Source: Candidatus Eisenbacteria bacterium (GTDB taxonomy: Bacteria; Eisenbacteria; RBG-16-71-46; SZUA-252). Taken from it: a DNA stretch of 36,366 nt. Position numbers and translations under genes: made by a program. Positions 3,840 to 31,267 of the stretch are shown in pieces (within the stretch, counting starts at the first letter, position 1; each line of letters starts with the position of its first letter). The notes below the pieces were generated by a model that searched no databases, was not told the origin of the DNA, and saw only the letters and a list, made by a program, of their open reading frames with translations. The stretch spans positions 1-36,366 of the forward strand of contig VBOW01000066.1 in assembly GCA_005893275.1 (NCBI GenBank), in the 5' to 3' direction.

Positions 3840-3869
3840 TTGACAAATGTACAACAAGTTATGTATAAT
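3840..3869 (+). promoter_or_regulatory. Strong sigma-70-type promoter for the structured ncRNA
   Basis: A perfect TTGACA (3840-3845), an 18-base spacer and a perfect TATAAT (3864-3869) lie in an AT-rich patch within an otherwise GC-rich window. No protein gene lies downstream on this strand, which points to a highly expressed RNA. Expected start about 3876-3877. Confidence 0.8.
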
Positions 3870-3876
3870 ACTTCGC

Positions 3877-4104
3877 GTGATTTGAGACCTGCGAAGTCAT
3901 ACGGAACTTTTTACCAATCGCGGCGTCTAAAGGGTACGGCAAACAGGGTTGTGAAGTTCCCTGTGATTCGCGTTACCTGAGGGCTTGACCCGGCGTTCGC
4001 CGGTGGGTTGCCCAAGGCCTTAACGCAAGCTTTCAAGGCACGGTTTCCGCGGGGAACTTCCGCAAATCGGGTGGCGGGGCGAAAGCTCCGCCACCATAAT
4101 TTTT
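3877..4104 (+). ncRNA. Standalone structured RNA, probable 6S-like RNA
   Basis: The interval lies between a perfect promoter and a strong terminator, with no open frame supported on the + strand. A long imperfect hairpin can be drawn. The closing stem pairs TTGTGAAGTTCCC (3949-3961) with GGGAACTTC-C-GCAA (4052-4064, one bulge). An open region follows, with GATTC on the 5' side and a longer 3' side carrying a mini-hairpin GCTT-TCA-AGGC. The upper stem is GCGTTA/TAACGC, then GGGC/GCCC, and the apical hairpin contains CCGG-CGTTCG-CCGG. The upper stem carries CCTGAG opposite GGCCTTAA, similar to the CCTGAG and GCCTTAA parts of E. coli 6S RNA. A central bubble within a long rod is the 6S (ssrS) plan, in which RNA polymerase-sigma70 is sequestered. 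The first ~70 bases, with hairpin ACTTCGC/GCGAAGT at 3870-3897, may be a processed leader. The 6S assignment is by structure and motif only; another abundant ncRNA class is possible. Confidence 0.6.
4070..4104 (+). terminator. Rho-independent terminator of the ncRNA
   Basis: An 11-base-pair stem (GGTGGCGGGGC / GCTCCGCCACC, one G-T pair) closes on a GAAA tetraloop (4081-4084) and is followed by ATAATTTTT at 4096-4104. The T tract lies only on the + strand side, so it terminates rightward transcription. Confidence 0.9.
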
Positions 4105-4166
4105 GCCCGGCCCAGGCTCCGGCCCCGCCCGCTTCGGCCCAACCCGCCCCCGACCCGCGGGCCCGC

Positions 4167-5930
4167 CTACACCCCCTTGACCGCCACCAGGGTCAAATCA
4201 TCGTCCGGCTCCCCGCCGCTGAAGGCCCCCACCGTCTCGCGGACCCCCCGCACGATTTCGGCCGCGGATCGCTCTTTTCTCGAACGGATCACGTCCTTCA
4301 AACGGTCATCCCCGAAGAGCTCCTGGACGTCGTTCATGGATTCGGTGATTCCGTCCGTGTAGAGGGCGAGGATGTCGCCGCGTCCGATCTCGGCCTGCTT
4401 CTCCTTGAAGGTCGCGTTCTCGAGCGTCCCCAACAGGGGACCGGTTGAGTCCAGACTTTCGAACGAGTCCGTCGCCGCCCGGTACAGGAGCCCGGGGTTA
4501 TGCCCCGCGTTCACGTACGTGAACCGGCGCGCGTTGATGTCGAGCACGCCATAGATCGCGGTCACGAAACGCTCCACCTCGACGCTTTCCCAGAGGAGCT
4601 TGTTCACCTTGGAGAAGACCGTGCGGATCGCGTAGTTGTTCCGGACCTCCGCGATGAGCGACGCGCGGAAGGCCGCCATGATGAGCGCCGCCGGAATCCC
4701 CTTCCCCGAAACATCGGCGACCACGATTCCCAGATGTCCCTCGGTGATCCGCACGTAGTCGTAGTAATCCCCGCCCACCAAACCCGACGAATAATTGGCG
4801 CCCGCGATGTCGAAGTTCGCCACCTTGGGGTCGCGCTCGGGAAGAAAGGTCCGCTGGATCCTCTGACCGATCGACAGCTCTTCCTCGAGCCTCCGGGTCT
4901 CCAATACCTCCGCGTGGAGCCGGGTGCGCTCGATCGCCACCGCCGCTTGGCTCGCGAAGGTCATCAGGAGCTCCAGGTCTTCTGGCTCATAGGCGTCCGG
5001 CTCGTCCGATTCCAGGTTGAACGCGCCGATCACCTCCGAGCCCACCCGAAGCGGCGCGACCATCTCGGAGCGGGTCTGGGCCCTCGCGTTCACGTACCGT
5101 TCGTCGCGCAGAACGTCCGGCACGATCACGGAACGCCCGGTCTTCGCGACCCACCCGATGAGCCCTCGGCCCACCTTGAGCCGCACCGCGTCCTCGCGAT
5201 TCGGATCGTAGCCGCGGATCGCCTGCTGGTTGATCCACTGCGTCTTCTTGTCCACGAGATAGATTCCAGCCGCGTCGTAGCGAACGACCTGGAAGACCAG
5301 ATCCAGGATTTGCTCCAGGAGCTGCCCCGTGTCGAGGCTGACCGAAATCTTGGTGCCGAGCTCGAGGAGGAGATGGTTCTGCACCTTCTCGCGCGTCGCC
5401 TCGGCGTAGATGCGCGAGTTCCCCACCGCGATCGCAAGCTGGATCGAAAGCTCGCGCAGGAAGGAGAGGTCCTCCTCGGGAGGGCGCGTCGAGTCGAGCT
5501 TCGTGAGGACGACGACGCCGAGCGGTTCGCCGGCGCGCCTCAGCGGAAGCGTCAGGACACCCTGGATCATCGAACGCTGCCGGCCGCCCCATTCCTCCGG
5601 AATGTACTGCGCCTCGGACAGAGTCGGGTAGAAGGCCGGAATCTCCTCCGCGCAGGCCTGACCCGCGACCCCCTGTCCCACGCTGAGCCGCGGCCGGCGG
5701 CCCAGGACCGGGGTGTTGCAGAGGGTCCACGGATAGAGGACCTCCGACCTCGGATCGAGAACCCAGAGCGAGAGCTCCGAGAACCCGCTCGCGCGCAACA
5801 GAAGATCGCGCGCCTTGCGCGCCAGCTCGTCCCGCTTCAGGAGCGCCAGCTCGCGCGAAGCGCGAACGAGAAACTGGAGCCGCTCTTCCTGGCTCGTGGC
5901 GCGCGCGGCGAGTGTGATGGGCTCGTTCAT
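4167..5930 (-). CDS. GAF-GAF-SpoIIE (RsbU-like) protein serine phosphatase
   Basis: A 587-residue soluble protein from ATG at 5930. Two GAF sensor domains (about residues 20-170 and 195-345; the second carries VGRGLIGWVAKTG and SEMVAPLRVG) precede a short coiled linker (EEELSIGQRIQRTFLP) and a PP2C-type SpoIIE phosphatase domain (about 370-585). The metal-binding signature residues are present: GGDYYDY near 386, DVSGKG near 405, YTDGITE near 525 and DDDLTLV near 575. RsbU-type phosphatases act on anti-anti-sigma factors in partner-switching control. No RsbW/RsbV-like genes lie in the window, so its target is unknown. Its start overlaps the stop of the upstream gene (ATGA), implying translational coupling with the HExxH protein. 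Transcription probably begins at the promoter near 7200. Confidence 0.9.
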   Translation of the reverse strand: MNEPITLAARATSQEERLQFLVRASRELALLKRDELARKARDLLLRASGFSELSLWVLDPRSEVLYPWTLCNTPVLGRRPRLSVGQGVAGQACAEEIPAFYPTLSEAQYIPEEWGGRQRSMIQGVLTLPLRRAGEPLGVVVLTKLDSTRPPEEDLSFLRELSIQLAIAVGNSRIYAEATREKVQNHLLLELGTKISVSLDTGQLLEQILDLVFQVVRYDAAGIYLVDKKTQWINQQAIRGYDPNREDAVRLKVGRGLIGWVAKTGRSVIVPDVLRDERYVNARAQTRSEMVAPLRVGSEVIGAFNLESDEPDAYEPEDLELLMTFASQAAVAIERTRLHAEVLETRRLEEELSIGQRIQRTFLPERDPKVANFDIAGANYSSGLVGGDYYDYVRITEGHLGIVVADVSGKGIPAALIMAAFRASLIAEVRNNYAIRTVFSKVNKLLWESVEVERFVTAIYGVLDINARRFTYVNAGHNPGLLYRAATDSFESLDSTGPLLGTLENATFKEKQAEIGRGDILALYTDGITESMNDVQELFGDDRLKDVIRSRKERSAAEIVRGVRETVGAFSGGEPDDDLTLVAVKGV

Positions 5931-6616
5931 CGGCCGCGGCGCTTCGCTCGCCTGCCCGTGTCGTGGGGGCTCTGGATCTCGGCGAGAAAAGCCCGAAGCT
6001 CTTTGGGACCCAAGTGGTCCGCGGTCCAGAGGGCGTTGAAGATGCGCTCTCCGCGGCGGGTGAAGCGTGGATAGTGGCTGAGGGTCCTGACGAAAACGCG
6101 CCGCCGCTCGCCGCGCGTCATCGCGGGCAGCCCACGGCGGTTGAGGCGGCCGTCGATCCACACGTTCCAGAGCTCGTTCAGGGCCTCACGGTCCTCTTCC
6201 GGGTGCGCCGCCAGGTCGACGCCGGCCTCGTGATCGTCGCGCAGGTGATAGAGCTCGTGGAGGCACGCCTCGGCGAAGCACTTGCGCGAGAACTGGCGGG
6301 GCTCGACCGGAGGCACCCCCGCCCGCCGCCCCCAGGTCCGCGTCCACGCGCGCCGGCGCGCGGGGGTGACGAAGTTGCCGAGCGCGAAGGAGAGCCGCAC
6401 CGCGCGATGATCGTGCGTGTTCCATTCGATGTAGGCGTGGTCGTCCCGATTCCGCAGGTCCACGTGCACGTGGACATCGCGCACCACATCGGAAAGGCCC
6501 AGCTCGTGAATCGACTCGCGCAGCACCCCCTCGGCCGCCTCCCGCAGGGGAAAATCGGGCGGGTGCCAACGGACGCGAAGCCCCTGCCCCCCGTGCGCGG
6601 CATGGAGCGGTCGCAT
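5927..6616 (-). CDS. Uncharacterised HExxH metallopeptidase-like protein
   Basis: A 229-residue protein from ATG at 6616, nine bases after the stop of the upstream gene. It has no signal peptide or membrane segment. The central motif HELYHLRDDH (about residues 119-128) has the zincin HExxH pattern plus an additional His, followed by acidic residues and ALNELWNVWIDGRLNRRG, a W-rich helix resembling the second half of minimal zincin folds (SprT or DUF-type). The N-terminal half has an HVHVDLRNRDDHAYI strand-rich segment. I do not recognise the exact family; peptidase activity is an inference from the motif. The C-terminus is very basic (RRAKRRGR). It overlaps the start of the SpoIIE phosphatase gene by four bases, so the two may work together, for example as a stress sensor and its switch. 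Confidence 0.75.
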   Translation of the reverse strand: MRPLHAAHGGQGLRVRWHPPDFPLREAAEGVLRESIHELGLSDVVRDVHVHVDLRNRDDHAYIEWNTHDHRAVRLSFALGNFVTPARRRAWTRTWGRRAGVPPVEPRQFSRKCFAEACLHELYHLRDDHEAGVDLAAHPEEDREALNELWNVWIDGRLNRRGLPAMTRGERRRVFVRTLSHYPRFTRRGERIFNALWTADHLGPKELRAFLAEIQSPHDTGRRAKRRGR

Positions 6617-6624
6617 GGCCGCGC

Positions 6625-7110
6625 TCACTTGGAGACGAGGCCCACGACGAAGATGTGGAGCGCGATCATGCCGACCAGAAGCGCGGCTGGATGGAGCCCG
6701 AACACGCCGCGCCTCGGCTTCGCGCCTGGCTTGGCCGCTCCTCCCGACGCTGGAAAAGGCAGCCCCACGGACTGCGCCCCGATTGTGTCCCCGAACGCAG
6801 GTCGAGAGCCGCGCCCGGTCGAGTCCGGAGATGCCCACGCGGGGAGATGAATCTGCTGGGGAACGGTGTCCTGTCCCGCCGGACTCACTTGGGGCTCGGG
6901 AATTCTGGGCTCAACATCGGTGCTGTCTTTCCCCTGGTCGCCCCCTTCCGGCACCTCTCCCGGGGGTTGCATCGAGTAGTCGGTCAGCGCGAGCAAGCTC
7001 GACGGAGCGGCCGTGGCCCGCGACGAATGGAAGGGGGACGCGGCGAAGGCTGTGCCCGCCGAGAGACAGATCGCTGCCGCGATCCCCGCGAAAAGAGCTC
7101 TGCGCGTCAA
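6625..7110 (-). CDS. Small exported protein with a C-terminal transmembrane segment
   Basis: A 161-residue protein. No ATG fits; TTG at 7110 is preferred because AGGGGGA lies nine bases upstream and the product then starts with a clean signal peptide (TRRALFAGIAAAICLSAGTAFA). The middle (~40-135) is proline-, serine- and glycine-rich with no predicted fold (DVEPRIPEPQVSP, DSTGRGSRPAFGD). The C-terminal ~20 residues (HPAALLVGMIALHIFVVGLV) form a single membrane helix followed by SK. It would therefore be anchored in the inner membrane, with its disordered part outside. It heads a three-gene group with the HExxH protein and the SpoIIE phosphatase. I do not recognise the family; an exported substrate, tether or signal input for the downstream metalloprotein is speculative. 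Confidence 0.65.
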   Translation of the reverse strand: MTRRALFAGIAAAICLSAGTAFAASPFHSSRATAAPSSLLALTDYSMQPPGEVPEGGDQGKDSTDVEPRIPEPQVSPAGQDTVPQQIHLPAWASPDSTGRGSRPAFGDTIGAQSVGLPFPASGGAAKPGAKPRRGVFGLHPAALLVGMIALHIFVVGLVSK

Positions 7111-8557: not shown

Positions 8558-8968
8558 CTAACGCCCGAGGAGCGCCTCGAACCGATCGGTGTCGATCAGC
8601 ACGGCGTCCCGGAATCGGAGCGGCGGGTTCAGCGGACCGTAGTACCACCATTCCTCCGTATGGCCCACCGGCGTCAGAAGGACGCGGCTCGTGGGATAGC
8701 CGAGAGCGTCGAACACCATTCTCATGTCCGGAGGAATATGCGACGCCCAATAGGCCATGCGAATCGAGTGCCGCAGGAGCTTCTCCTGATGGCGCACGTT
8801 CGCCGACAGCCACTCCTTCGTCGCGAGAAGGAGCACGGAATCGGCGTCGACGAAGAGGATCCGGGTGGGGCCCAGGAACATGGTCATTTCTGCGCGCGCT
8901 CGAGCGGACGGCAGCCCGATCGAGAGAAGCGCGGCGGCGCCGAGAAGCAGGGCGAGGCGTCGTGGCAT
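8558..8968 (-). CDS. Small exported protein of unknown function
   Basis: A 136-residue protein from ATG at 8968 with a signal peptide (MPRRLALLLGAAALLSIGLPSARA, cleavage probably after ARA). The ~110-residue mature part contains FVDADSVLLLATKEWLS, a Met-rich stretch, and near the end GYPTSRVLLTPVGHTEEWWYYG. The latter is an aromatic hairpin-like segment loosely similar to small BamE/SmpA-type folds, where a 'G-x-P-x-x...W.Y' pattern occurs. That resemblance is weak. Upstream the frame stays open to 9112, but the promoter with TATAAT at 9042-9047 sits inside that extension, supporting the shorter form. Probably periplasmic. Confidence 0.7.
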   Translation of the reverse strand: MPRRLALLLGAAALLSIGLPSARARAEMTMFLGPTRILFVDADSVLLLATKEWLSANVRHQEKLLRHSIRMAYWASHIPPDMRMVFDALGYPTSRVLLTPVGHTEEWWYYGPLNPPLRFRDAVLIDTDRFEALLGR

Positions 8969-9041
8969 GGCGCGTGTACCTCGGGATGGGAGGCCCGGTG
9001 GGGCGGCCGAACGGCACGGCACCGGCACCATTCTGAGCTTC

Positions 9042-9070
9042 ATTATACCGCAAACGGCGGGCGTTTCGAA
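9042..9070 (-). promoter_or_regulatory. Putative sigma-70 promoter for the small exported-protein gene
   Basis: On the minus strand, a perfect TATAAT at 9042-9047 lies 17 bases from TTCGAA (9065-9070). The start is expected near 9035, about 65 bases before the ATG at 8968. Confidence 0.5.
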
Positions 9071-9084
9071 GGGGGACCGGAGTT

Positions 9085-9432
9085 CTAGATTCGGTAGAGG
9101 ATCCGGCCGCAATTCTCGCAGTTTTCTACCCTTCTGGAGTCGGAAACCCGGCGAGTCGCGGCGGTCGGGAGCCCCATGAAGCAGCCGAGGCAGACGCTGC
9201 CTTCGACGCGGACCACCACCCGATCGTACCGGCGGCTCATGCGCTCGTAGAGCTGCAGGAGCCGGTCGTCGATCTGCTTCGCGAGCCGCTCGCGGGTCCG
9301 CTCGAGCTTATCCACCCCTCCGAGCGGGAACCCCAGCTCCTCCTCCTGGGTCGCCCGCTCCGGATCCTTGGCCTCCCGGATCAGGAGGTCCAAGTCTTGG
9401 AGCGCGACCAGCGCCTGAAGCTGATCATTCAT
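9085..9432 (-). CDS. C4-type zinc-ribbon coiled-coil protein
   Basis: A 115-residue protein from ATG at 9432. The N-terminal ~70 residues are helical and charged (LQDLDLLIREAKDPERA, then KLERTRERLAKQIDDRLLQLYERM), as expected for a coiled coil. The C-terminus holds a four-cysteine zinc ribbon: C81-x2-C84 (VCLGCFMGLP) and C105-x2-C108 (NCENCGRILY). This is the arrangement of the DUF164 / CdsZ-like zinc-ribbon family, usually ~240 residues; the present protein is about half that length, having a shorter coiled coil. Its start overlaps the stop of the PtsN-like gene by eight bases (ATGAATGA), so the two are translated as a pair. A nucleic-acid or protein-binding role is likely from the ribbon, but none is shown. 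Confidence 0.82.
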   Translation of the reverse strand: MNDQLQALVALQDLDLLIREAKDPERATQEEELGFPLGGVDKLERTRERLAKQIDDRLLQLYERMSRRYDRVVVRVEGSVCLGCFMGLPTAATRRVSDSRRVENCENCGRILYRI

Positions 9433-9925
9433 GGGCGAGCTGTCCCAGGAGAATGGTCCGGATCCTATCGAAGTTGGACGCCTCGAGGAGTCGCTGACGC
9501 GGTCGGGCCAAGCGGACGGACTTGACGATTTCCGCCAGGAGCTGCAGATAGACGGGATCGTGCTCTGTCGGAGGCGCAACGATGAGGAAGCATAGGTGCA
9601 CCGGGTTTCCATCCGTCGCGTCGAACTCGATGCCTCGCGTCGATCGAGCCAACAGGACCGCGCGTTCGGCGACCATCGTGGAGCGGCCGTGGGGTATCGC
9701 GATCCCCTTCCCGATGCCTGTGCTGCCCAGGGCTTCCCGCTGGCGCAAGACCTCGAGGACCGCACCGGCCTGGCGCGCCACTTTCTGCTCGGCCAGGTGG
9801 GCGACCATTTCCTCGAGGGCCGGGAATTTCTTTCTGCTCTTCAGCTCCGGAATAAAGAGAGTCGGACGTAGATGTAATTCGAGATGCGCACCGGTCTTGC
9901 GGTCAGCGAATGGCGCGGTAGGCAT
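9425..9925 (-). CDS. ptsN: PTS EIIA type-2 / PtsN-like phosphocarrier
   Basis: A 166-residue EIIA domain protein of the fructose/nitrogen-PTS type. The phospho-accepting histidine is H79 in GIGKGIAIPHGRS, the hallmark of the PTS_EIIA_2 fold; PTEHDPVYLQLLAEIVKSV matches the following conserved helix. The family normally receives phosphate from NPr and regulates potassium transport, sigma-54-linked functions or carbon metabolism. No EIIB/EIIC permease is adjacent, which favours a regulatory PtsN role. The chosen ATG at 9925 has AGGAGG only two bases away, which is too close; an in-frame ATG about 25 codons upstream, at the start of IGVTADATN, is possible, but no downstream start fits. It overlaps the zinc-ribbon gene and diverges from the TPR gene at 10202. 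Confidence 0.85.
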   Translation of the reverse strand: MPTAPFADRKTGAHLELHLRPTLFIPELKSRKKFPALEEMVAHLAEQKVARQAGAVLEVLRQREALGSTGIGKGIAIPHGRSTMVAERAVLLARSTRGIEFDATDGNPVHLCFLIVAPPTEHDPVYLQLLAEIVKSVRLARPRQRLLEASNFDRIRTILLGQLAHE

Positions 9926-10149
9926 TGCCTCCTGGGAATCTACTTTGGAGTTCGTAGCATCGGCTGTTACCCCGATCATCAACGCTACACAACCTAAGGG
10001 TTTCTCGCAAGTTTGTTCGTGCGGGCGGGCGGATCGCACGAAGGTTTTGGGCCGCACGCGGCAAGAGATTGGCCGTTTCTCTCGTAAGTTCATGCGGCGG
10101 AGCGTGGAACTCCCGCGCCCCGCCTCGGAAATTGCACTACGCCACCCTC

Positions 10150-10163
10150 GGCACGCTGCTTGC
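10150..10163 (+). promoter_or_regulatory. Putative sigma-54 promoter (-24/-12) for the TPR gene
   Basis: GGCACG-CTGC-TTGC gives GG (10150-10151), exactly ten bases, and GC (10162-10163). It matches the TGGCACG-N4-TTGC consensus except for the first T (C here). The predicted start near 10174 precedes a GAGGAGG ribosome site and the GTG at 10202. Confidence 0.5.
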
Positions 10164-10201
10164 CTTAGTCCCATTGGGAGATAGCAGAGGAGGATCCAGA
10201 A

Positions 10202-10705
10202 GTGTCCACAGCAAGACAAAGAAGGCAGCATCAACTCGCGGTCACGGGCGCGATCGGTCACGAGCATTTCCTGGCCGGCGTTCGCATGCTCTACGCGTGC
10301 CGGTACCGCGACGCCTTGAACCATTTCCAGGAAGCGATCGTGCTGGAGCCCGCGGCAAAAGGGTACTTGAGCTTTCTCGGTCTCGCCGTCGCGCACGCCG
10401 ACCGGAAATTCAGCGATGCCGAGCAGCTCTGCCGCCGGGCCATCGAGTCGGAATACCATCGTCCCGAGCACTACCACAACCTGGGCGAGGTGTTTCTCCT
10501 CGCGAACCGCCGGGCCGACGCCGTCAAGGCATTCAACCAGGCGCTCTCGTGGAATCCCAACTTCGAAGCTTCGAGCGACTGTCTGAGGAAGCTGGGCGTG
10601 CGCAAGCCCCCGGTCGTCCCCATCCTGCCCCGCAGCCACCCCATCAACATCGTTCTGGGGAAGGCGCTCCGCGGCGGGCGCAAGAACCGCACGGCGCGCA
10701 CGTAG
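10202..10705 (+). CDS. TPR-repeat protein
   Basis: A 167-residue protein starting at GTG 10202 with GAGGAGG eight bases upstream; it is the only confident + strand protein gene in the window. It holds about three tetratricopeptide repeats between residues 20 and 125. Visible pieces are GVRMLYACRYRDALNHFQEAIVLEP, then AHADRKFSDAEQLCRRAIE, then YHNLGEVFLLANRRADAVKAFNQALSWNP. The C-terminus is basic and proline-rich (KPPVVPILPRSHP, ending RKNRTART). There is no signal peptide, so it is cytoplasmic and probably a protein-interaction adaptor. It diverges from the ptsN-like gene behind a sigma-54-like promoter and ends three bases before the stop of the convergent ABC permease gene. Partner unknown. 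Confidence 0.85.
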   Translation: MSTARQRRQHQLAVTGAIGHEHFLAGVRMLYACRYRDALNHFQEAIVLEPAAKGYLSFLGLAVAHADRKFSDAEQLCRRAIESEYHRPEHYHNLGEVFLLANRRADAVKAFNQALSWNPNFEASSDCLRKLGVRKPPVVPILPRSHPINIVLGKALRGGRKNRTART

Positions 10706-23125: not shown

Positions 23126-23869
23126 TCACCGCGACACAGAAGGTGGAGTATACCGTGCGGCGTCGGCGACGCGCCACAGCCCGGACCGCCGCGCCCACCC
23201 GATCGCGTTTCCGCTCACCCGAATCTCGACCAGGCCGCCGCGCGTCCGGCCGAGCCGGACCTCTTCTCCCGCGCCGAGGAGGTAGGGAGAGCGCGGCTGC
23301 TCGTCGGGGGCCGGCCCGACTTCGAGGACCGGCACCACGACGACCGCCTCCGGATGCCGCCGCTCCTCCCTGGCGCGCAGGAGGAGCCAGCCCGACGCCA
23401 GAACGCCGAGCGCCAACACCACGGTGCCGCCCACGAAAAGACCGCGCCGCGCTCGGCGAAGCGCCGCGAGCCCTCCGGTCAGCGCGCCCGCCAGGGCAAG
23501 CAAGGCCGCGACCCACCATGCTTCCCCCGTCGAGAGCGCGATTCCCGGCGACTGCGGGGTCCGTTCCCGCTCCCCCGATCCCTGGGTCGCCTCGGCGCGC
23601 GCCCGTGCGATCGCGAGATTGGCTCGGACATCCTGGGCGCGCGGATCGATTCTCTGCGCGGCGAGAAGAAACGCGACGGATCGCCCCGGATCACCCCTGG
23701 AGAGTGCGTCGGTGCCCGCGTTAAAGAGGGCGGCGGCGTCCACGCGCGGCTCGCGCCCAACCTCCGCGCGCGGCTCGCGCCCTCCGTTCGGCGCGGAGGC
23801 CGGCCCCGCCACCACCGTCACCAGCGCGATCGCGATCGCGGGCCCCAGGGCGCCCCACGCCTGCTTCAC
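23126..23869 (-). CDS. batE: BatE-like protein (TPR and SH3-like)
   Basis: A 247-residue protein from GTG 23869, which overlaps the BatD stop (GTGA). Signal peptide (residues ~8-25); a short TPR-like stretch DAAALFNAGTDALSRGDPGRSVAFLLAAQRIDP (roughly 45-77); two membrane helices (about 117-135, 143-160); then a C-terminal SH3-like domain (PYLLGAGEEVRLGRTRGGLVEIRVSGNAIGWA) of the bacterial SH3_3 type. This combination and its place after BatD are typical of BatE in Bat operons of Bacteroidetes and Leptospira, where Bat proteins form a periplasmic complex linked to aerotolerance or envelope stress. Assignment rests mainly on context. Confidence 0.78.
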   Translation of the reverse strand: MKQAWGALGPAIAIALVTVVAGPASAPNGGREPRAEVGREPRVDAAALFNAGTDALSRGDPGRSVAFLLAAQRIDPRAQDVRANLAIARARAEATQGSGERERTPQSPGIALSTGEAWWVAALLALAGALTGGLAALRRARRGLFVGGTVVLALGVLASGWLLLRAREERRHPEAVVVVPVLEVGPAPDEQPRSPYLLGAGEEVRLGRTRGGLVEIRVSGNAIGWARRSGLWRVADAARYTPPSVSR

Positions 23870-25668
23870 CGCGCGAGCTCTCCGCGGTAGCGCTCGAGCA
23901 GAGCCCGGACCGCGCGGAGCGCCTGCTTGGTGTCGGCGCCCCGCGTCTCCGGCGGCGCGTAGGCGATTCCCTCGAGCGACTCGAAGAGCGATTCGAGCGC
24001 CGAGATCTCGCCTTCCCCCGCGCCGCGCGAGCGAAGAATGCGGGTGAGCTCCCCCCGTGGCAGACCTGCCACATCCGCGTCGAACCGGTATCCGGCTCCG
24101 GCCCGAAGCGCGTTCTCCGCGAGCGCCGCGGCTCGCGCCGGCTGATTCTGCGACGCGAAGGATTCAGCACGCGCGAGATCCCGTGCGAGGAGCGCGGCGA
24201 GCGACTGCAGACGCAGGAATCGGGGATCCCGATGTTTCCGCGCGCGGATCCTCCCGGCCGCGATGGCGGCGCCATAGGCGAGCACCGAGAAACCGAAGAC
24301 CGCCGTGCCGCCGTCGGGCGGGTCCAGCGTGAGCCTTCCGAACGGGCCGCTCGCACGCCGGGGCGCGGCAAGGATCGGCGGACCGGGTGAAGCGCGGCCC
24401 GCCTGGGATTCCGCGAGATTTCCGGGAAGGACCTGCACCTTCACGCTGTCGGATGCTTGCGACCGGTAGCGTCGCGCCTCCGGATCGAACCAGACCAATC
24501 GCACGGGCAGGATCACGAGGACGCCGGGCCGGTCCGCGACGAAGGCGACATCGGTCTCGCGTTCTCCCGTGAGCCGGTCCCCGCTTCGGTCGGTCCGGCT
24601 CGAGGAGCCGGCCACGTACTCCCGCGCCGCGCCCAAAGCGCGGATCTCCGGATCACGGATCGTCGGGATGTTGCCCGTCCCGCGTATGGTCGCGCGTGCC
24701 ATGACCGGCTCCCCCGCGCGCGCGGTGAGCCCGTCCACGTGGAGCGCCAAGCGGAAGTCCCCCACCGCCCCGCGAAAACCGGAGGGAGCCCGAGGCGGAA
24801 GCGGGTCCACCGTGATCGTGATGGGGTCGCTGGTGAGCGCCACGTCTTGAGGTACGACCTCGGGCACCGCCAGCATGCTCCATGGATCCGGCGGCTGGAT
24901 GACGCGGGCCACGCGGAAGCGGATCTGGGCCGGGCCGATCGTCAGGGCTCCCGTGCGGGTCGGGAAGAGGGCGGTGGGAATCTCCATCATCGCGTATTCC
25001 ACCCCGTTCAAGGTCACACGCTCTTGACGCGGCGGCCCGAGTCCCTCGCTCCAGAAGCCCTTCGTGCCCGGCGCCTTCCAGTCCACGTCGCCGATGATGT
25101 CGACCCGCGAGTAGAGCCTGAGGCTCAACACGAGCTGCTGATTCCAGTAGACGCGCGGGTGGTCCACCGTGGCCTTGACAAAAACCTCCGGCGTCCCGGA
25201 GGGACCCGTTCCGGCTCCGCGGACCGGGCGCGGCGGGGCACCCCGCGACGCGGCGGCGCGCGACACGGTGAGGGTGAGCGGCGCCGATTCCGCGTGATCG
25301 CGACCCACCGAGATCCGAAGCGACGGAATGCTCACCAGCCCTTCCGTTCGTGGGATGAGCCGGTAGACGGTCGTCGACGTGCGCTCCACCCGCGCTTGGA
25401 CCATTGAAAAATTCTGCGCCGTTCCCGCGCGCTGTACCTCGACGTTCCGGAGCGGCCGTACATCCACATCGGGGAGGTTGAGCCCCGCCGAGCGAATCCG
25501 CACCGTCAGGGTAGCCTCCTCGCCCGGTGCCACGTGATCCGGCTCGAGCGTCGCCTCGATGGAGAGCCTGCCGCTCGCCGATACGCCGGACCAGGAGGCG
25601 CGGGGAAGCGCTGCGGCGGCAAGAGTGACCGCAAGCGCGGTCGCGATGAGCCCGGTCTTACCAATCAC
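23866..25668 (-). CDS. batD: BatD-like protein
   Basis: A 600-residue protein from GTG 25668, supported by AGGAGGAG about ten bases upstream; the ATG at 25707 is an alternative. Signal peptide (TGLIATALAVTLAAAALPRASW) and then beta-sandwich repeats of the BatD (oxygen tolerance) family. Typical phrases are ATLEPDHVAPGEEATLTVRI, then VEVQRAGTAQNFSMVQ, then QLVLSLRLYSR and LFPTRTGALTIGPA. One membrane helix lies near 470-490 (AVFGFSVLAYGAAIAAG), followed by a cytosolic helical tail. BatD is the periplasmic scaffold of the Bat complex, with BatA/BatB anchored around it. It overlaps BatC by eleven bases and BatE by four. Confidence 0.88.
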   Translation of the reverse strand: MIGKTGLIATALAVTLAAAALPRASWSGVSASGRLSIEATLEPDHVAPGEEATLTVRIRSAGLNLPDVDVRPLRNVEVQRAGTAQNFSMVQARVERTSTTVYRLIPRTEGLVSIPSLRISVGRDHAESAPLTLTVSRAAASRGAPPRPVRGAGTGPSGTPEVFVKATVDHPRVYWNQQLVLSLRLYSRVDIIGDVDWKAPGTKGFWSEGLGPPRQERVTLNGVEYAMMEIPTALFPTRTGALTIGPAQIRFRVARVIQPPDPWSMLAVPEVVPQDVALTSDPITITVDPLPPRAPSGFRGAVGDFRLALHVDGLTARAGEPVMARATIRGTGNIPTIRDPEIRALGAAREYVAGSSSRTDRSGDRLTGERETDVAFVADRPGVLVILPVRLVWFDPEARRYRSQASDSVKVQVLPGNLAESQAGRASPGPPILAAPRRASGPFGRLTLDPPDGGTAVFGFSVLAYGAAIAAGRIRARKHRDPRFLRLQSLAALLARDLARAESFASQNQPARAAALAENALRAGAGYRFDADVAGLPRGELTRILRSRGAGEGEISALESLFESLEGIAYAPPETRGADTKQALRAVRALLERYRGELAR

Positions 25669-26332
25669 GATGCCCGGTCTCCTCCTGGCGGCGGCCCTGA
25701 TCCTCATGCATCCTCGCCCGCCGCTCGGACTCCAGCGCTTGAAGCCACTGCTCCGCTTCCTCGCGCGTGAACTCCCCGCTCGACCCCCGCGGCGTTTGTC
25801 TCGGCTCTTTTGCCCCGCCCCCCATCGGCTGCGGCACGGGATTTTCCCGGCCACCCGGCGTCGGGGGCCCCGCGCCCCCGGCCTGCGGCTCACGTCGCGG
25901 CTGGCCGAGGGGTTGCCGCAAGCGCCGGATCGCCTCTTCGAGATTTCGCTTGGCGTCGAGATCCCTGGGGGTGATGCGCAGCGCCTCGCGGTAATACCGC
26001 GCCGCCTCTGCGAATCGCATGGCGCGCATCGATTGGTTCCCCATGTTGTACGCCGCCGCAGCGCGGGCGGGATCCCCGCGAAGGGTCATCGCCTCTCCGA
26101 AGCGGATTTGCGCGGAATCGGCCTCACCTCTGCCGAGATGCGCCAGCGCCTCGTCGTAGGGGATCACGGCCGAGCTGGGCATCTCGGAACGACCGGCGCG
26201 CAGTGCGTCGAGCGCTTCGTCCAATCGGTGGGCCCGGAGCGCGCGCACCCCTTTCCGCGCGGGCCCGCCCCACTCGTAGATCGCCCCCAGCGCGGTGAGG
26301 GTGAGCACGAGCAGCGCCGCGCCCCGCTTCAT
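25658..26332 (-). CDS. batC: BatC-like TPR protein
   Basis: A 224-residue protein from ATG at 26332 (ATGA overlap with BatB). It begins with a signal or anchor helix (MKRGAALLVLTLTALGAIY). The N-terminal half carries TPR-like segments, including DEALDALRAGR, ADSAQIRFGEAMTL and AAYNMGNQSMRAMRFAEAARYYREALRITPRD. The C-terminal ~70 residues are Pro/Gly/Gln-rich and charged (GAGPPTPGGREN, EEAEQWLQALESERRARM), ending in RDW. This matches the BatC plan of short TPR plus disordered tail. Its role would be to link BatB and BatD outside the cytoplasm. Confidence 0.83.
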   Translation of the reverse strand: MKRGAALLVLTLTALGAIYEWGGPARKGVRALRAHRLDEALDALRAGRSEMPSSAVIPYDEALAHLGRGEADSAQIRFGEAMTLRGDPARAAAAYNMGNQSMRAMRFAEAARYYREALRITPRDLDAKRNLEEAIRRLRQPLGQPRREPQAGGAGPPTPGGRENPVPQPMGGGAKEPRQTPRGSSGEFTREEAEQWLQALESERRARMHEDQGRRQEETGHRDW

Positions 26333-27327
26333 CGACGCCGCCGCGGCACGAGCCGCTCCATCACGAGCAGCACGCCCGCCGCCGCGGCAAACCATGGAAA
26401 GCGTTCGTTGTACGCGCGGATCGAGCGCCCCTTCGCCTCGTAGGCTCCTCCGGACCGGATCGGCTCGACGAGTCGGAGCGCTGCCCGTCCTGTTCCATCC
26501 GCCCTCTCGTATCGCCCTCCTCCCTGCTCCGCCAGGCTCCGGAGCGTTTTCTCATCCAACCGCGTGATCACGATTCTGCCCTCGGCGTCGCGCTTCACAT
26601 CGCGCACGGCGCCGGTCGTATCCACCACCGGGATCGTCGTCCCCTCGGGAGTCCCGAGGCCGATCGTATAGAGCCTCGCGCCCGCGCGCCTCACGCTCTG
26701 CAAGGCGCGACCCGGATCCCCTTCGAGGTTTTCTCCGTCCGAGAAGAGCACGATGGCCCGCGGTCTCTCCCCCGGCCGCGCCAGCAGGCGGGCGGCGAGC
26801 GTCAGCGCCGCGCCCAGGTCCGTTCCCGGCCGATCCATGTTCCGCGTGCTCGCGGTTTCCACGATCGACGCAAGCCCCTCGCGATCGGTGGAGAGCGGGC
26901 TCACGATCTTGGCCGACCCCGCGAACGTCACGAGCCCGATCTGCGACCCCTCGAGCGCGGTGAGAAGGGACAGCGCCTCGCGCTTGGCGGCCGAGAGCCG
27001 ATCCGGACGGAGATCGGGTGCGTCCATGCTCCGCGAAAGGTCGAGCGCGATCACGGCATCGACTCCGAGCGCCGTGGTTGTCACGAGGCGAAACCCCGAC
27101 TGCGGCCGCATCAGCCCGAGGCCCGCCAGCGCGAGCGCCGTGAGCGAAAGACCGATGCGCCACGCCCGGGTACGCGATCCGGCTTCCCCGCTCAGCGCCC
27201 GCAGCGCTTCCGGATCGCCGAGCGATCGTTCGGTGCGGAACCGCTCGCGAGCCGCGACCCATGCCAGGAGCGCGACCCCGAGCACGATCCAGAGCAGATG
27301 GATGAGCTGCGGTGAGGACCAGCGCAT
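26329..27327 (-). CDS. batB: BatB-like von Willebrand A protein
   Basis: A 332-residue membrane protein. Two N-terminal helices (8-25, 58-75) precede a vWA domain with a MIDAS: D96-L-S98-R-S100 (ALDLSRSMD) followed by TDLGAAL and FSDGENLEG. A C-terminal helix (WFAAAAGVLLVMERL) closes the protein and leaves an RRRR tail. vWA domains bind protein ligands through a metal ion. It directly follows BatA (four-base gap) and precedes BatC (ATGA), the canonical Bat order. Confidence 0.9.
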   Translation of the reverse strand: MRWSSPQLIHLLWIVLGVALLAWVAARERFRTERSLGDPEALRALSGEAGSRTRAWRIGLSLTALALAGLGLMRPQSGFRLVTTTALGVDAVIALDLSRSMDAPDLRPDRLSAAKREALSLLTALEGSQIGLVTFAGSAKIVSPLSTDREGLASIVETASTRNMDRPGTDLGAALTLAARLLARPGERPRAIVLFSDGENLEGDPGRALQSVRRAGARLYTIGLGTPEGTTIPVVDTTGAVRDVKRDAEGRIVITRLDEKTLRSLAEQGGGRYERADGTGRAALRLVEPIRSGGAYEAKGRSIRAYNERFPWFAAAAGVLLVMERLVPRRRR

Positions 27328-27331
27328 CGCG

Positions 27332-28318
27332 TTAAGGATACCGGTTCAACACGGTGAATCCGAGGAGGAGCTCCAGCGCGAGGAGCGCGCCGCCGAGCGC
27401 CAGGGCGCGCGGCCCCAACTCGGCCCACTGGGTATAGGAACGCATCTCGACGCGCGAGGGTTCCAGCGCGCCGATCTCGCGGTAGACCTGGCTCAGAAGC
27501 TCCGCCGAGGTCGCCCGGAAATACCGCCCTCGTGTTTCACGGGCCACTTCCTTCAGGGTCGCCTCATCCACTTCGGACGCGACCCACACGTAGTGACGCC
27601 CCAGCACCGGATCATCCACCGGGAACGGGGCCGCGCCCTGCGTGCCGGCGCCGATCGCATAGATGCGGACCCCGACCGCCTTCGCGAGCCGCGCCGCGGT
27701 GACCGGATCGACCGGGCCGGCATTATTGATTCCGTCGGTGAGCAGGATCAGCACCTTGCTTTTCCCAGGCGCCCGGTCGAGACGTTCCGCCGACTGAGCG
27801 ATCGCCGCTCCGACGGCGGTTCCGTCCGGCAGCTGTCCGAAATCCAGCCCGTCGATGAGGGAGCACAGGCCGTCGTAGTCCAGCGTGAGCGGGGAGATCA
27901 GCTCGCTCCTCCCGGCGAACGCGACGAGCCCGATCCGGTCCTGGACCCTCCCGCGGACGAATTCCTTGGCGACCTGCCTCGCGACGAAGAGGCGGTTCCG
28001 CGGCCGGAAATCCTCGGAGCGCATGCTTCCGGAGAGGTCGATCGCGAGCATGATGTCGATTCCCTCGCTCACCACCTCGCGCATCTCGCGCCCCGCCTGG
28101 GGCCGCGCGGCCGCGAGGAGGACGAGCCCGACGGCCAGGGGCCGAAGTCCTGGAAGCAGGCGCGCGGACCGCGCGCGGATCCCCGCGGCGGGCGGAAGCG
28201 CGGCCAAGCTCGAATAGCCCAGCTCGGGATCGCGCCACGCGGCTCTCTTCCGCGCGAGCCAGAATGTGAGCGCGAACGGGATGAAAAGCAGGAGATACCA
28301 GGGCTCGGCGAATCGCAT
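27332..28318 (-). CDS. batA: BatA-like von Willebrand A protein
   Basis: A 328-residue membrane protein from ATG at 28318. The N-terminal helix pair (WYLLLFIPFALTFWLARKR, LAVGLVLLAAARP) is followed by a vWA domain with MIDAS D94-L-S96-G-S98 (AIDLSGSM), DGTAVGAAI and LLTDGINNAG; the C-terminal helix (LGGALLALELLLGFTVL) ends close to the stop. The MIDAS residues are intact, so metal-dependent ligand binding is expected. The gene is two bases from the lipoprotein gene upstream and four from BatB. Confidence 0.92.
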   Translation of the reverse strand: MRFAEPWYLLLFIPFALTFWLARKRAAWRDPELGYSSLAALPPAAGIRARSARLLPGLRPLAVGLVLLAAARPQAGREMREVVSEGIDIMLAIDLSGSMRSEDFRPRNRLFVARQVAKEFVRGRVQDRIGLVAFAGRSELISPLTLDYDGLCSLIDGLDFGQLPDGTAVGAAIAQSAERLDRAPGKSKVLILLTDGINNAGPVDPVTAARLAKAVGVRIYAIGAGTQGAAPFPVDDPVLGRHYVWVASEVDEATLKEVARETRGRYFRATSAELLSQVYREIGALEPSRVEMRSYTQWAELGPRALALGGALLALELLLGFTVLNRYP

Positions 28319-28320
28319 CG

Positions 28321-29379
28321 CTAGGCCGCTCCCTGGCGCGCGGACGAAGGCGGCCCGGGCGGAGGCGGCTGCGGGGCCCCAGGCTGCGGGGTTTCCGTCG
28401 GTCTGGGCCGGGCGATCAGCCGCCCCGCGATCGACCCCGCCAGACGCAGGATCTCCCTCGCCTCCGATTCCTCGTCCTCAAAGCGCGCGAACTTCGCGAG
28501 ATCGGCGCGCGTGAGCGCCGCGACCAGATCGTCTCGACCCTTCGCGATCACCCGGTCGCCTGTCAGCTCTCTCGCGAGCTCGGTCGTGGTGAGATCCAGG
28601 GCCGGCACGCCGGTCACGGCCGCCACGTACGCGCGCAACGCAAGCGCGAGCCGCTCGTAAAATACATCGCGAGGAATCACCGGGAACTCGCTCCGAAGCG
28701 CGCCGAGGGCCCGGCTCAGGATCGCTTCGGGGGCCTCGGGCGGCCCCGCCGCGGCGGGGAGCCGCCGCCGCGCGCGGGCGCGGATCCAACGCGCAATCAT
28801 GGCCGCCACCGCCGCCACGGCCACCGCGACCAGGAAGCCGGCGAGGACATAGTCCACGGGGCGGAGCGGCGTGTCGATGGGGCCGCGGTCGGGCCGAATC
28901 GCGCCCGTCGCGGCCGGGGTGAGGGAATCCACGAACAGGGTGTCCCGCGGAAACTCCACGGTGTCGGCGAGGGCGTCCACGTGAATCTGCAGGGCGGCCC
29001 GCGGGAGCTCGATCGCGCCCAGATCGAACCCCCGCACGAGGTACTCGCGCGACCATACGGATCCGCCGTGCTCGGATCTCTGGGAAGGCGCTCTCGTGGA
29101 GTCGATCTCGAGGGAGGAGGGCAGGCTGCCCAGAACAGCGGCTCCTGCCCGCGCGCCCGGACCGAGCGAAGCGGCGAGTCTCCAGGAAACCCGGTCTCCA
29201 AGGGTTCCCCGCGCGGGCTTGAGCTCGCTCCGCAGCCGAACGTGGATCTCGCCCAACGCTTCGTCGCGCTCGACCACGCGCCGCGGCGCGGTGCCCGTGA
29301 TCCCGCCGCAGCCGGCGAGGGAACAAACGACCCCTAGAAGAAGCGCGCCTCGAAGACGCCTTCGGCCGGCGGAGGACAC
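28321..29379 (-). CDS. Bat-operon lipoprotein with a DUF4381-like C-terminal part
   Basis: A 352-residue protein from GTG 29379 with a lipobox (SLAGC, Cys24). The periplasmic part (25-175) is a beta sandwich with EIHVRLRSELKPARGTLGD and a possible immunoglobulin-type core. A membrane helix follows at about 178-200 (LAGFLVAVAVAAVAAMIARW). The cytosolic C-terminal part (YERLALALRAYVAAVTG, TTTELARELTGD, ADLAKFARFEDEESEA) matches the DUF4381-like proteins found between DUF58 and BatA in MoxR operons. A lipobox and a downstream transmembrane helix in one protein is unusual. The last ~25 residues are proline-rich. Confidence 0.8.
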   Translation of the reverse strand: MSSAGRRRLRGALLLGVVCSLAGCGGITGTAPRRVVERDEALGEIHVRLRSELKPARGTLGDRVSWRLAASLGPGARAGAAVLGSLPSSLEIDSTRAPSQRSEHGGSVWSREYLVRGFDLGAIELPRAALQIHVDALADTVEFPRDTLFVDSLTPAATGAIRPDRGPIDTPLRPVDYVLAGFLVAVAVAAVAAMIARWIRARARRRLPAAAGPPEAPEAILSRALGALRSEFPVIPRDVFYERLALALRAYVAAVTGVPALDLTTTELARELTGDRVIAKGRDDLVAALTRADLAKFARFEDEESEAREILRLAGSIAGRLIARPRPTETPQPGAPQPPPPGPPSSARQGAA

Positions 29380-29385
29380 CGCGAT

Positions 29386-30261
29386 TCAGCGCCGGAAGGC
29401 GCGCTGCTCGAAATGCCGGACCAGCTCGGGCGCGACCGGCGAGCCGCACGTGACACGGATCCGGTCCGCGCGCGCGCGCGTGAGCACTTCCTTGAGCACC
29501 CGCTGCCGGCGGGCCCGGGTGCCCCGCCATTCGCGCCGCGCGCCCGCGGAGCCCAGGTTCACCGTCCGGGTCACACCGGTCTCGAGGTCCCTGACCTGGA
29601 TGAGACCCCGCGCGGGAAGGTCCTCCTCGAGCGGATCCTGGACCTCGACCGCCACGATCTCGTGCCGGCGGGCGAGGAGGTTCAGGGGCCGGTCGAAGGA
29701 TTCCGCGAACCAATCCGAAATGAGGAAGAGAACCGCGCGGCGGCGGAGCACGCGTCCGAGGAAGGCGAGCGCGCCGTGGAGGTCGGTGCCCGTGCCGCGG
29801 GGCTCGAACGCGACGAGATCCCGCACGATCCGGAGCGACCGCGCCCGGCTCTTGGATGGAGGAAGGTAGAGCTCGACCCGGTCGGTGAAGAGGAGAAGCC
29901 CCACACGGTCGCGATTGCGGCTCGCGGCGAGCGCGAGCAAGGCGCCCGCCTCCGCCGCCGTGTTGCGCTTCGTTCTCGCCGTGCTTCCGAACCGCAGCGA
30001 TCCGGAGAGGTCCAGGGCCAGGACGACCGTGAGCTCGCGCTCCTCGTCGAATCGCTTCACGAACGGCCGGCCGTGCCGGGCGGTGACGTTCCAGTCGATC
30101 GTGCGCACGTCGTCCCCGGCGACGTACTCGCGCACCTCCGAAAACTCGAGCCCCTTCCCCCGAAACGCGCTCCGGTAGGCGCCCGCGAAGACCTCCTCCA
30201 CCGCCCTGCGGCTTCGGATCGTGAGGCGCCGGACCTGGGCCAGAAGCTCCGGCGTGATCAC
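29386..30261 (-). CDS. DUF58 protein (MoxR-associated, vWA-like)
   Basis: A 291-residue soluble protein starting at GTG 30261, overlapping the MoxR stop (GTGA). It carries the DUF58 signature GKGLEFSEVREYVAGDDVRTIDW around residues 35-58, then NVTARHGRPFVKRF and a vWA-like core with ALDLSGSLRFG near 82 (MIDAS pattern D-x-S-x-S). DUF58 proteins sit next to MoxR ATPases and are thought to be the MoxR-controlled partner in the assembly of vWA complexes such as Bat. A helix LKEVLTRARADRIRV and a basic tail close the protein. Confidence 0.92.
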   Translation of the reverse strand: MITPELLAQVRRLTIRSRRAVEEVFAGAYRSAFRGKGLEFSEVREYVAGDDVRTIDWNVTARHGRPFVKRFDEERELTVVLALDLSGSLRFGSTARTKRNTAAEAGALLALAASRNRDRVGLLLFTDRVELYLPPSKSRARSLRIVRDLVAFEPRGTGTDLHGALAFLGRVLRRRAVLFLISDWFAESFDRPLNLLARRHEIVAVEVQDPLEEDLPARGLIQVRDLETGVTRTVNLGSAGARREWRGTRARRQRVLKEVLTRARADRIRVTCGSPVAPELVRHFEQRAFRR

Positions 30262-31250
30262 GGGACCTCGACGCGGGCGAGAATCCGGCGGGTCACTTCG
30301 TCCACCGGCACGCCCTCGGCTTCGGCCTCATAGGTGAGGAGGATGCGGTGGCGGAACACATCCGGCGCGATCCCCTTGATATCGTCCGGGGTCACGTAGG
30401 CGCGGCCCTCGAGAAACGCGAGCGCTCGCGAGCCGCGGGCGAGCGCGAGGGTCGCGCGCGGGGAAGCGCCATACTGGATGAGCGGCCTCAGGTCGAGCCC
30501 GAACCGCTCCGGCTCCCGGGTGGCGTGCACGAGATCGACAATGTATTTTCGAATCCGCTCGTCCAGATAGATGGCGTTCACCAGATGCCTCGAATCGAGG
30601 ATCCTCTTGGCCGCGATCACCGGCTCGGGAGGAGCCGGGGGCTCCCCGCCCATGCGATCCAGAATGAGCCCTTCCTCCTCGGGGCTCGGGTAGCCTACGC
30701 GAATCTTGAGAAGGAAGCGGTCCATCTGGGCCTCGGGCAGCGGGTAGGTTCCCTCCTGCTCGATAGGATTCTGGGTCGCGAGGACCCAGAAGAGTCTTTC
30801 GAGCGGATAGGTCGCGTCCCCGATCGTCACCTGCCGCTCCTGCATCGCTTCCAGGAGCGCGCTCTGCACCTTGGCCGGCGCTCGGTTGATCTCGTCGGCC
30901 AGAAGGATCTGGGTGAAAACGGGCCCGAACTTGGGGGCGAACGAGCCTTTGCTGGGATCAAAGATCAGGGTTCCGGTCAAATCCGCCGGCAGGAGGTCGG
31001 GCGTGAACTGAATCCGGTGAAACGTCGCCTGGATCGCCTGGGCCACCGTCTTCACCGCGAGGGTCTTCGCGAGACCCGGAACGCCCTCCAGCAGAAGATG
31101 CCCGTCCGCCAGAAGCCCGACCAGGATCCGCCGGATCATTTCCGTCTGCCCCACGATGATCGACTCCACCGACTCGAGGAGGGTCCCGAGGAAGGCGCTC
31201 TCCTCACGGACCTTCGCGTTTCGCTCTTCGATGGTGAGCTGGGGCGTCAA
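30258..31250 (-). CDS. MoxR-type AAA+ ATPase
   Basis: A ~330-residue AAA+ ATPase. A TTG at 31250, seventeen bases past the GlyA stop, is the best start, since no ATG or GTG exists between the stop and the conserved domain and the frame upstream lies inside glyA. No clear ribosome site is seen, so the start is the weakest point. Conserved parts: IIVGQTEMIRRILVGLLADGH, Walker A GVPGLAKT, LTGTLIFDPSKGSFAPKFGP, Walker B ILLADEINRAPAKVQSALLEAMQE, sensor 1 FWVLATQNPIEQEGTYPLPEAQMDRF, and a sensor 2 lid with YGASPRA. MoxR acts as a chaperone that matures vWA-bearing complexes. It controls the DUF58 and Bat proteins that follow. Confidence 0.9.
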   Translation of the reverse strand: MTPQLTIEERNAKVREESAFLGTLLESVESIIVGQTEMIRRILVGLLADGHLLLEGVPGLAKTLAVKTVAQAIQATFHRIQFTPDLLPADLTGTLIFDPSKGSFAPKFGPVFTQILLADEINRAPAKVQSALLEAMQERQVTIGDATYPLERLFWVLATQNPIEQEGTYPLPEAQMDRFLLKIRVGYPSPEEEGLILDRMGGEPPAPPEPVIAAKRILDSRHLVNAIYLDERIRKYIVDLVHATREPERFGLDLRPLIQYGASPRATLALARGSRALAFLEGRAYVTPDDIKGIAPDVFRHRILLTYEAEAEGVPVDEVTRRILARVEVP

Positions 31251-31267
31251 CGCGGCGCGGCTTGGGG

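Follow-up and report, generated by a model that had tools for sequence, protein, structure and literature searches.

A conserved three-gene group joining an HExxH metalloprotein-like protein and an exported small protein to a GAF-GAF-SpoIIE phosphatase in one family-level lineage of Candidatus Eisenbacteria

Introduction

The reception of signals by PPM phosphatases is understood in few cases, among which RsbQ-RsbP is the described system with a required enzyme encoded by a neighbouring gene. The question of what may feed such a phosphatase is raised by a stretch of DNA from Candidatus Eisenbacteria bacterium (GenBank assembly GCA_005893275.1, contig VBOW01000066.1, positions 1 to 36,366, hereafter referred to as the window), in which three coupled genes on the minus strand, from 7110 to 4167, encode an exported small protein, a protein with an HExxH motif and a GAF-GAF-SpoIIE phosphatase. 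The window constitutes contig C66 of an assembly with 95 contigs and 2.88 Mb. Here, we report that this three-gene cassette is real and conserved and, among the genomes searched, restricted to one lineage. The HExxH and exported genes are probably two fixed upstream partners that a widespread phosphatase has gained in a single family, and they probably supply it with a signal in a manner peculiar to this lineage.

The three-gene cassette and its conservation

The anatomy and linkage of the three genes are near certain, and their main features in the window are as follows:

6625 to 7110, minus strand: exported small protein of 161 amino acids, with the same place and build in 8 of 8 genomes
6625 to 6628, minus strand: GTGA stop/start overlap from the exported-protein gene to the HExxH gene (GTGA in 3 of 8 genomes, TGATG in 5)
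5927 to 6628, minus strand: HExxH metalloprotein-like gene, starting at GTG 6628 (GTGA overlap) or ATG 6616
6245 to 6259, minus strand: HELYH codons (H121 to H125), with H121, E122, H125 and H130 invariant in 8 of 8 genomes
6152 to 6169, minus strand: WNVWID (residues 151 to 156), invariant in 8 of 8 genomes and placed by the model in the helix after the active-site helix
5927 to 5930, minus strand: ATGA stop/start overlap from the HExxH gene to the phosphatase gene, in 8 of 8 genomes
4167 to 5930, minus strand: GAF-GAF-SpoIIE (PP2C/PPM) phosphatase of 587 amino acids (Pfam SpoIIE 7e-51, GAF_2 3e-33)

The coordinates given in the initial annotation (7110-6625 for the exported protein, 5927 for the end of the HExxH gene and 5930-4167 for the phosphatase) were correct, and the ATGA overlap that it described between the HExxH and phosphatase genes recurs in each of the 7 further genomes with the pair. 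The close spacing that it noted between the exported and HExxH genes was also observed, although the distance is 8 bases to ATG 6616 rather than nine. By comparison with the other genomes, the homologous start is probably GTG 6628, a codon that overlaps the end of the exported-protein gene. Because this homologous start overlaps as GTGA (3 genomes) or TGATG (5), the exported and HExxH genes are considered coupled in 8 of 8 genomes; the assignment in the other genomes (two GTGA, five TGATG) was made by inspection.

Searches covered a class set of 47 genomes, which were also those taken in by the phylum-level search, and a family-level lineage of 9 genomes in four genera, which were also those of the order-level search; thresholds were E<=0.001 for the HExxH protein and E<=1e-100 for phosphatase orthologues. 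Eight of the 9 family genomes, representing all four genera, yielded the HExxH protein, none of the 38 other class genomes did so, and the order of the three genes is the same in all 8 carriers. In the ninth genome (G004), contig C108 carries the downstream flank with the last part of the phosphatase and then ends. The possibility that G004 has no cassette was rejected, since the match runs to position 8694 of the 8695 bases of C108; as the contig ends within the phosphatase, G004 is silent on the presence of the cassette. The initial annotation had asked whether the HExxH family always lies beside SpoIIE phosphatases or only rarely co-occurs with them, and adjacency was observed in 8 of the 8 genomes in which the protein was found. 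All carriers fall within one family-level lineage of four genera, so that common ancestry, besides a possible functional link, is reflected in this co-occurrence. The gene preceding the cassette is a pyridoxal phosphate (PLP) enzyme gene in the window (Cys_Met_Meta_PP) and G003, and a gene of cluster c8 is next upstream in G001, G002, G006, G007 and G008. In 6 other family genomes, a member of this cluster is found upstream of the cassette.

The HExxH protein

This protein has about 230 residues, no visible signal peptide and a K/R-rich C-terminus, with 4-11 K/R in the last 25 residues of most members. Its sequence HELYHLRDDH corresponds to HExxHx4H, H130 completing the pattern, and WNVWID begins 21 residues past H130 (residue numbers follow P0001, which has one residue ahead of Met). 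Across the 8 proteins, the last position of WNxxxDxxxN is N or H, and the candidate third metal ligands H130, E145 and E149 are all invariant. Sequence identity is 68-90% over the 8 genomes, and the ratios of nonsynonymous to synonymous substitution rates (dN/dS) of 0.07 and 0.12 against two relatives indicate purifying selection similar to that on the phosphatase. A chance HExxH reading frame is ruled out because of this identity, these ratios and the residues that are invariant along most of the protein. A scan of contigs recovered 4 relatives, all 71-90% identical, from 28 candidate stretches.

The initial annotation regarded the HExxH protein as belonging to no recognised family, and searches of Pfam, NCBIfam and PADLOC gave nothing of note. 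With the window protein, the sole Pfam match is to DUF5976, at E 0.25 and below the cut-off. When all 8 members were compared with Pfam at E up to 10, four families were matched, the best at E 0.012, and taken as chance; PF13203 (DUF2201_N) is not among these four, HMMER filters dropping most weak matches, and it has no match in the protein's own genome. In addition, a profile of the family gave one chance match (E 0.96) in a PDB sequence search and, in the phylum set, just four short matches, scoring 13.7-16.5 bits, from three additional genomes, which were also taken as chance, and tblastn against plasmids gave no match.

An AlphaFold model built from the 8-row alignment has a mean predicted local distance difference test (pLDDT) score of 77. 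Foldseek returned nothing significant with this model (best E 0.17), and the 50 rows shown of the VIA re-alignment of the Foldseek candidates are almost all zincins, including M1 aminopeptidases, LTA4 hydrolase, selecase and YbeY. The modelled order of elements, a mixed sheet followed by the HExxH helix and a further helix, fits a zincin or minigluzincin, but the VIA Z scores reach at most 6.5; a zincin-like fold is considered likely. The predominance of zincins may reflect just a common arrangement, and the absence of other families from a list pre-selected by Foldseek is no evidence.

The sequence itself is more informative than the fold matches. A similar signature is found in a set of DUF2201_N putative metallopeptidases (from six plasmids and one class genome), whose HExxHx4H precedes [WF]NxAxDxxxN at an identical inner spacing, the W being kept in 6 of 7 rows. 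The full signature HExxHx4H...WNxxxDxxxN was detected in 6 of 504 distinct called genes, namely 4 DUF2201_N genes and 2 of the HExxH family, for a pattern that was chosen after being seen and with a gene caller that missed other members of both groups.

The exported small protein

The first protein of the cassette has an N-terminal Sec-type signal peptide, a linker and a C-terminal membrane segment RRGVFGLHPAALLVGMIALHIFVVGLVSK. Its start was set by inspection at TTG 7110, and the signal peptide was judged by eye and seen in the 7 exported proteins that have their N-terminus, one of the 8 being cut there by a contig start. The linker is of low complexity; in the window it has 94 amino acids, 74% of which are P/S/T/D/E/G/A/Q/N, and these residues make up 73-82% among relatives. 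Architecture is kept and sequence hardly so, identity across genomes being only 21-43%, and the tail is recognisable and conserved with variations, e.g., RRGVFGLHPAALLVGMIALH. The dN/dS values of 0.25 and 0.53 are poor evidence (dS is 2.6 in one pair, and the other has 70 codons). These proteins are regarded as orthologues chiefly because of their place and build, and less because of their sequence. Nothing usable was found for them in Pfam, NCBIfam or PADLOC.

The phosphatase and its older neighbourhood

The GAF-GAF-SpoIIE architecture proposed for the third protein was borne out by Pfam, and the metal-binding Asp motifs of PP2C (GGDYYD, DVSG, DGxxE and DD) are present in the phosphatases of all 8 genomes. 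These enzymes are 69-87% identical, with dN/dS of 0.10 and 0.12 against two relatives. Of the 47 class genomes, 38 have an orthologue; 8 of these belong to the family and 30 do not. Neighbourhoods of the phosphatase were compared at 27 loci, of which 20 come from the 30 class genomes outside the family and 7 from the family; 254 genes were called by a simple caller that missed some, and neighbours were grouped into sequence clusters, one member of each being named via Pfam.

Among the 20 non-family neighbourhoods, the genes upstream of the phosphatase include EIIA (6 neighbourhoods) and zinc-ribbon (3) genes, those downstream include bactofilin (5) and rhomboid (7) genes, and in 9 the phosphatase has a type II/IV secretion ATPase beside it on the opposite strand. 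The EIIA and zinc-ribbon genes are retained upstream in the window:

9085 to 10639, minus strand: phosphotransferase system (PTS) EIIA-2 domain protein and C4 zinc-ribbon protein (Pfam), in the older neighbourhood outside the cassette, with uncertain starts of the open reading frames

A gene of an amidohydrolase cluster overlaps the first likely phosphatase start in 3 of the 20 (L076, L085 and L086, by 11, 11 and 4 bases), the Pfam assignment having been checked for one of the three (Amidohydro_3, L085) and later phosphatase starts being possible. A coupled hydrolase upstream of the phosphatase may be a recurring arrangement, in which the amidohydrolase would be a parallel to the HExxH pairing.

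Further upstream on the same contig, a cluster of MoxR, DUF58 and VWA/Bat-type genes was recognised by eye from the translations (23126-31382, minus strand). Several other families of the class likewise have genes judged by eye to be Bat-like ahead of EIIA and the phosphatase, and the Bat-like/EIIA/phosphatase series is perhaps an old gene order that is interrupted in the window. An exported-looking protein of cluster c8, with the motif FVDADSV and without a Pfam family, is encoded at 8558-9112 (minus strand).

Convergent with the phosphatase, a structured small-RNA-like locus lies at 3840-4107 on the plus strand, with two promoter-like elements:

3840 to 3869, plus strand: TTGACA-18-TATAAT (12/12)
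3903 to 3930, plus strand: GGAACTT-N15-GTCTAA, with a spacer constant in length and variable in sequence

The latter resembles a promoter of the extracytoplasmic function (ECF) sigma type. The locus continues with a long two-part hairpin and then a terminator-like stem, has a fold z-score of -3.3 and shows two-sided changes at 14 of 54 consensus pairs. It is complete in 7 family genomes and partial in an eighth, the contig of the ninth ending before it. Rfam gave no overlapping match in the window (E<=1) or at 12 loci (E<=0.5), and a sub-threshold rli32 match adjoins the locus in L133. With a covariance model, 4 more class genomes were found to have weaker relatives (E 4.5e-5 to 0.02), on contigs other than that of the phosphatase or in genomes where no phosphatase passed 1e-100. 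From its shape, our guess is that the locus encodes a 6S-like RNA.

Partner-switch genes

Phosphatases of this type were said in the initial annotation to lie normally next to RsbV/RsbW partners, which were thought to be replaced here. The former statement holds for 4 of the 7 SpoIIE genes in the same genome, which have HATPase/STAS genes adjacent or fused in frame (contigs C29, C30, C31 and C62), and fails for 3 (C13, C22 and C66). Replacement found no support: the phosphatase occurs without the HExxH protein in 30 class genomes, and no STAS or RsbW-like gene was found among the 254 called genes of the 27 neighbourhoods (phmmer, E<=0.01), so that nothing indicates that local partners ever existed to be replaced. 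This search used eight STAS/HATPase queries from the same genome. Four STAS queries matched each other, the two RsbW queries matched each other weakly (E about 1e-4) and two queries from C62 matched only themselves, so that distant HATPases could be missed. Contig C66 itself has no PF13581 or PF01740 match. Since orthologues are class-wide and no STAS or RsbW-like gene was found nearby, the phosphatase appears to be an old orphan to which one family has later added a metalloprotein and an exported anchored protein.

STAS genes do exist on contigs without a SpoIIE match (C16, C14, C40 and C20). On C16 (genome G000, L114 4836-6139), an operon contains an RsbW-like gene, a STAS gene and, by eye, an ECF-type sigma factor gene, with no SpoIIE match on the contig, and its RsbW is found in 15 of 47 class genomes (E<=1e-15). 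The operon is at best one possible target of the phosphatase.

Proposed role of the cassette

The reading that we prefer, tentatively and at less than even confidence, is drawn by analogy with RsbQ-RsbP: the HExxH protein may be the input enzyme of the phosphatase. A class-wide orphan GAF-GAF-PPM phosphatase would have gained a fixed upstream input pair in one family. The exported protein would be anchored in the inner membrane via its C-terminus, and the cytosolic, DUF2201_N-like HExxH metalloprotein, being translationally coupled, would be made in register with the phosphatase and would either bind its GAF/coiled-coil input half or make a ligand for that half. The phosphatase domains might then form a dimer that removes phosphate from an anti-anti-sigma (STAS) protein whose gene lies elsewhere, with the exported protein reporting the state of the envelope or holding the complex at the membrane. 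Metal binding and catalysis by the HExxH protein, its contact with the phosphatase, the direction of the signal and the target are what we infer. The initial annotation suggested that the genes may be a stress-sensing module, and no observation supports stress as the input. This reading is suggested because the cassette is found in 8 of 8 genomes with both overlaps, the HExxH protein is under purifying selection with invariant HExxHx4H and WNxxxD, the VIA rows are rich in zincins, the phosphatase motifs are intact, an amidohydrolase gene overlaps the phosphatase in 3 of 20 neighbourhoods, RsbQ and RsbZ provide precedents and STAS genes exist on contigs without a SpoIIE match.

A more elaborate proposal, which we consider quite unlikely, is a three-part relay, in which the disordered exported protein, anchored via its C-terminus, senses the envelope, a cytosolic metallopeptidase of a novel family makes a cut or a small ligand in response and the GAF-GAF phosphatase reads it, the PPM phosphatases of this lineage recruiting different metal hydrolases (HExxH or amidohydrolase) into a coupled upstream slot independently of RsbQ-RsbP.

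Several observations weigh against an input enzyme of the RsbQ type. The exported protein would leave few residues in the cytosol, so that its contact with a cytosolic enzyme is hard to account for. In the Foldseek list (50 of 147 rows), zincins stand among unrelated folds, e.g., peptidyl-tRNA hydrolases, and the Z scores of the VIA fold matches are middling (best 6.5). The hhalign comparison of the HExxH and DUF2201_N families, in which the motifs are in register, does not reach significance (E 0.07, probability 0.8%); among 40 controls with shuffled columns, two gave a better score and a third matched it to within 0.1. Because shuffled controls match this E value, the protein is termed DUF2201_N-like rather than a member; membership, for which there is also no Pfam match, is not established. 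Finally, the C16 operon was rejected as an obligatory target, since its RsbW is present in only 5 of the 8 cassette genomes at the threshold given above.

Alternative explanations

It is possible, although somewhat unlikely in our view, that the three genes are merely co-expressed in an inherited family operon, the exported and HExxH proteins serving envelope upkeep and the phosphatase sharing the transcript. All carriers belong to one family-level lineage of four genera, descent alone keeps gene order over some distance, and unrelated nearby genes (zinc ribbon and EIIA) are likewise kept in several genomes; however, both stop/start overlaps have been kept in 8 of 8 genomes although the next upstream gene has changed (PLP enzyme or c8). 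It is unlikely that the HExxH protein is instead a genuine cytosolic protease acting on a cellular or membrane target, with the phosphatase regulating it or being its substrate, so that it would represent output rather than input. Minigluzincin-like VIA rows are compatible with such a protease, including selecase (Z 6.1 over 99 residues) and 6mdw (Z 5.4), which we take to be a SprT/Spartan-type protease, and the K/R-rich C-terminus could bind nucleic acid or an acidic membrane. Gene order and ATGA coupling, however, place the enzyme ahead of a phosphatase that has its own sensor, there is no visible substrate and the VIA Z scores are modest.

A further explanation treats the HExxH protein as a catalytically dead scaffold, i.e., a binding adaptor of the kind that RsbT is for RsbU, whose HExxH residues are structural. 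A binding partner alone can switch a phosphatase, as RsbT activates RsbU by ordering its linker (PMC12143880); yet the invariance of H121, E122, H125 and H130 in 8 of 8 genomes is hardly needed by a scaffold, and this explanation appears very improbable.

Comparison with known systems

The search of open-access literature found no report joining Eisenbacteria with SpoIIE, nor one joining RsbP/RsbQ with an upstream metalloprotease. If the input-enzyme reading is true, the cassette would add a second, unrelated enzyme class and a membrane-anchored gene, the idea that an enzyme feeds a sensor would become testable outside Bacillus, and a DUF2201_N-like metalloprotein without MoxR and VWA companions would acquire a functional context.

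DUF2201_N/PF13203 comprises putative metallopeptidases that have a VWA-like domain and are frequently encoded next to a MoxR ATPase. These and the HExxH protein share HExxHx4H followed by WNxxxD with identical inner spacing, whereas the loop between the motifs is about nine residues longer in the HExxH protein, which has no other Pfam domain, lacks a VWA-like half and adjoins the exported-protein and phosphatase genes rather than a MoxR gene; an annotated MoxR gene adjoins 3 of the 6 plasmid DUF2201_N genes. With minigluzincins (selecase and the SprT/Spartan type) the protein shares a small, single-domain zincin-like arrangement in the AlphaFold model, but it has no PDB sequence match of note and the likeness is seen only at Z about 5-6.

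At the level of the whole group, the cassette is unlike an RsbV/RsbW partner-switch cluster in that no STAS or HATPase genes were found beside the phosphatase. Its phosphatase resembles RsbZ of Clostridioides difficile, in which tandem GAF domains are likewise followed by a PPM domain and for which AlphaFold predicts control via a coiled-coil linker and dimerisation (PMC12143880); RsbZ belongs to the sigma-B pathway, and no HExxH or exported partner is mentioned in the section consulted, whereas the cassette has both. The closest parallel is with RsbQ-RsbP of Bacillus subtilis, in which RsbQ is an alpha/beta hydrolase encoded in a bicistronic rsbQP operon, its catalytic triad is required for RsbP function and 45 pairs with adjacent genes are reported (PMC3183031). 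In both systems, an enzyme gene adjoins the gene for a PPM phosphatase with an N-terminal sensor and the neighbours are co-conserved, the HExxH protein being presumably a hydrolase. RsbQ-RsbP combines an alpha/beta hydrolase with a PAS sensor, whereas the cassette combines a zincin-like HExxH protein with two GAF domains and an exported third protein, and it is in this sense a variant of the enzyme-plus-PPM sensing pairs.

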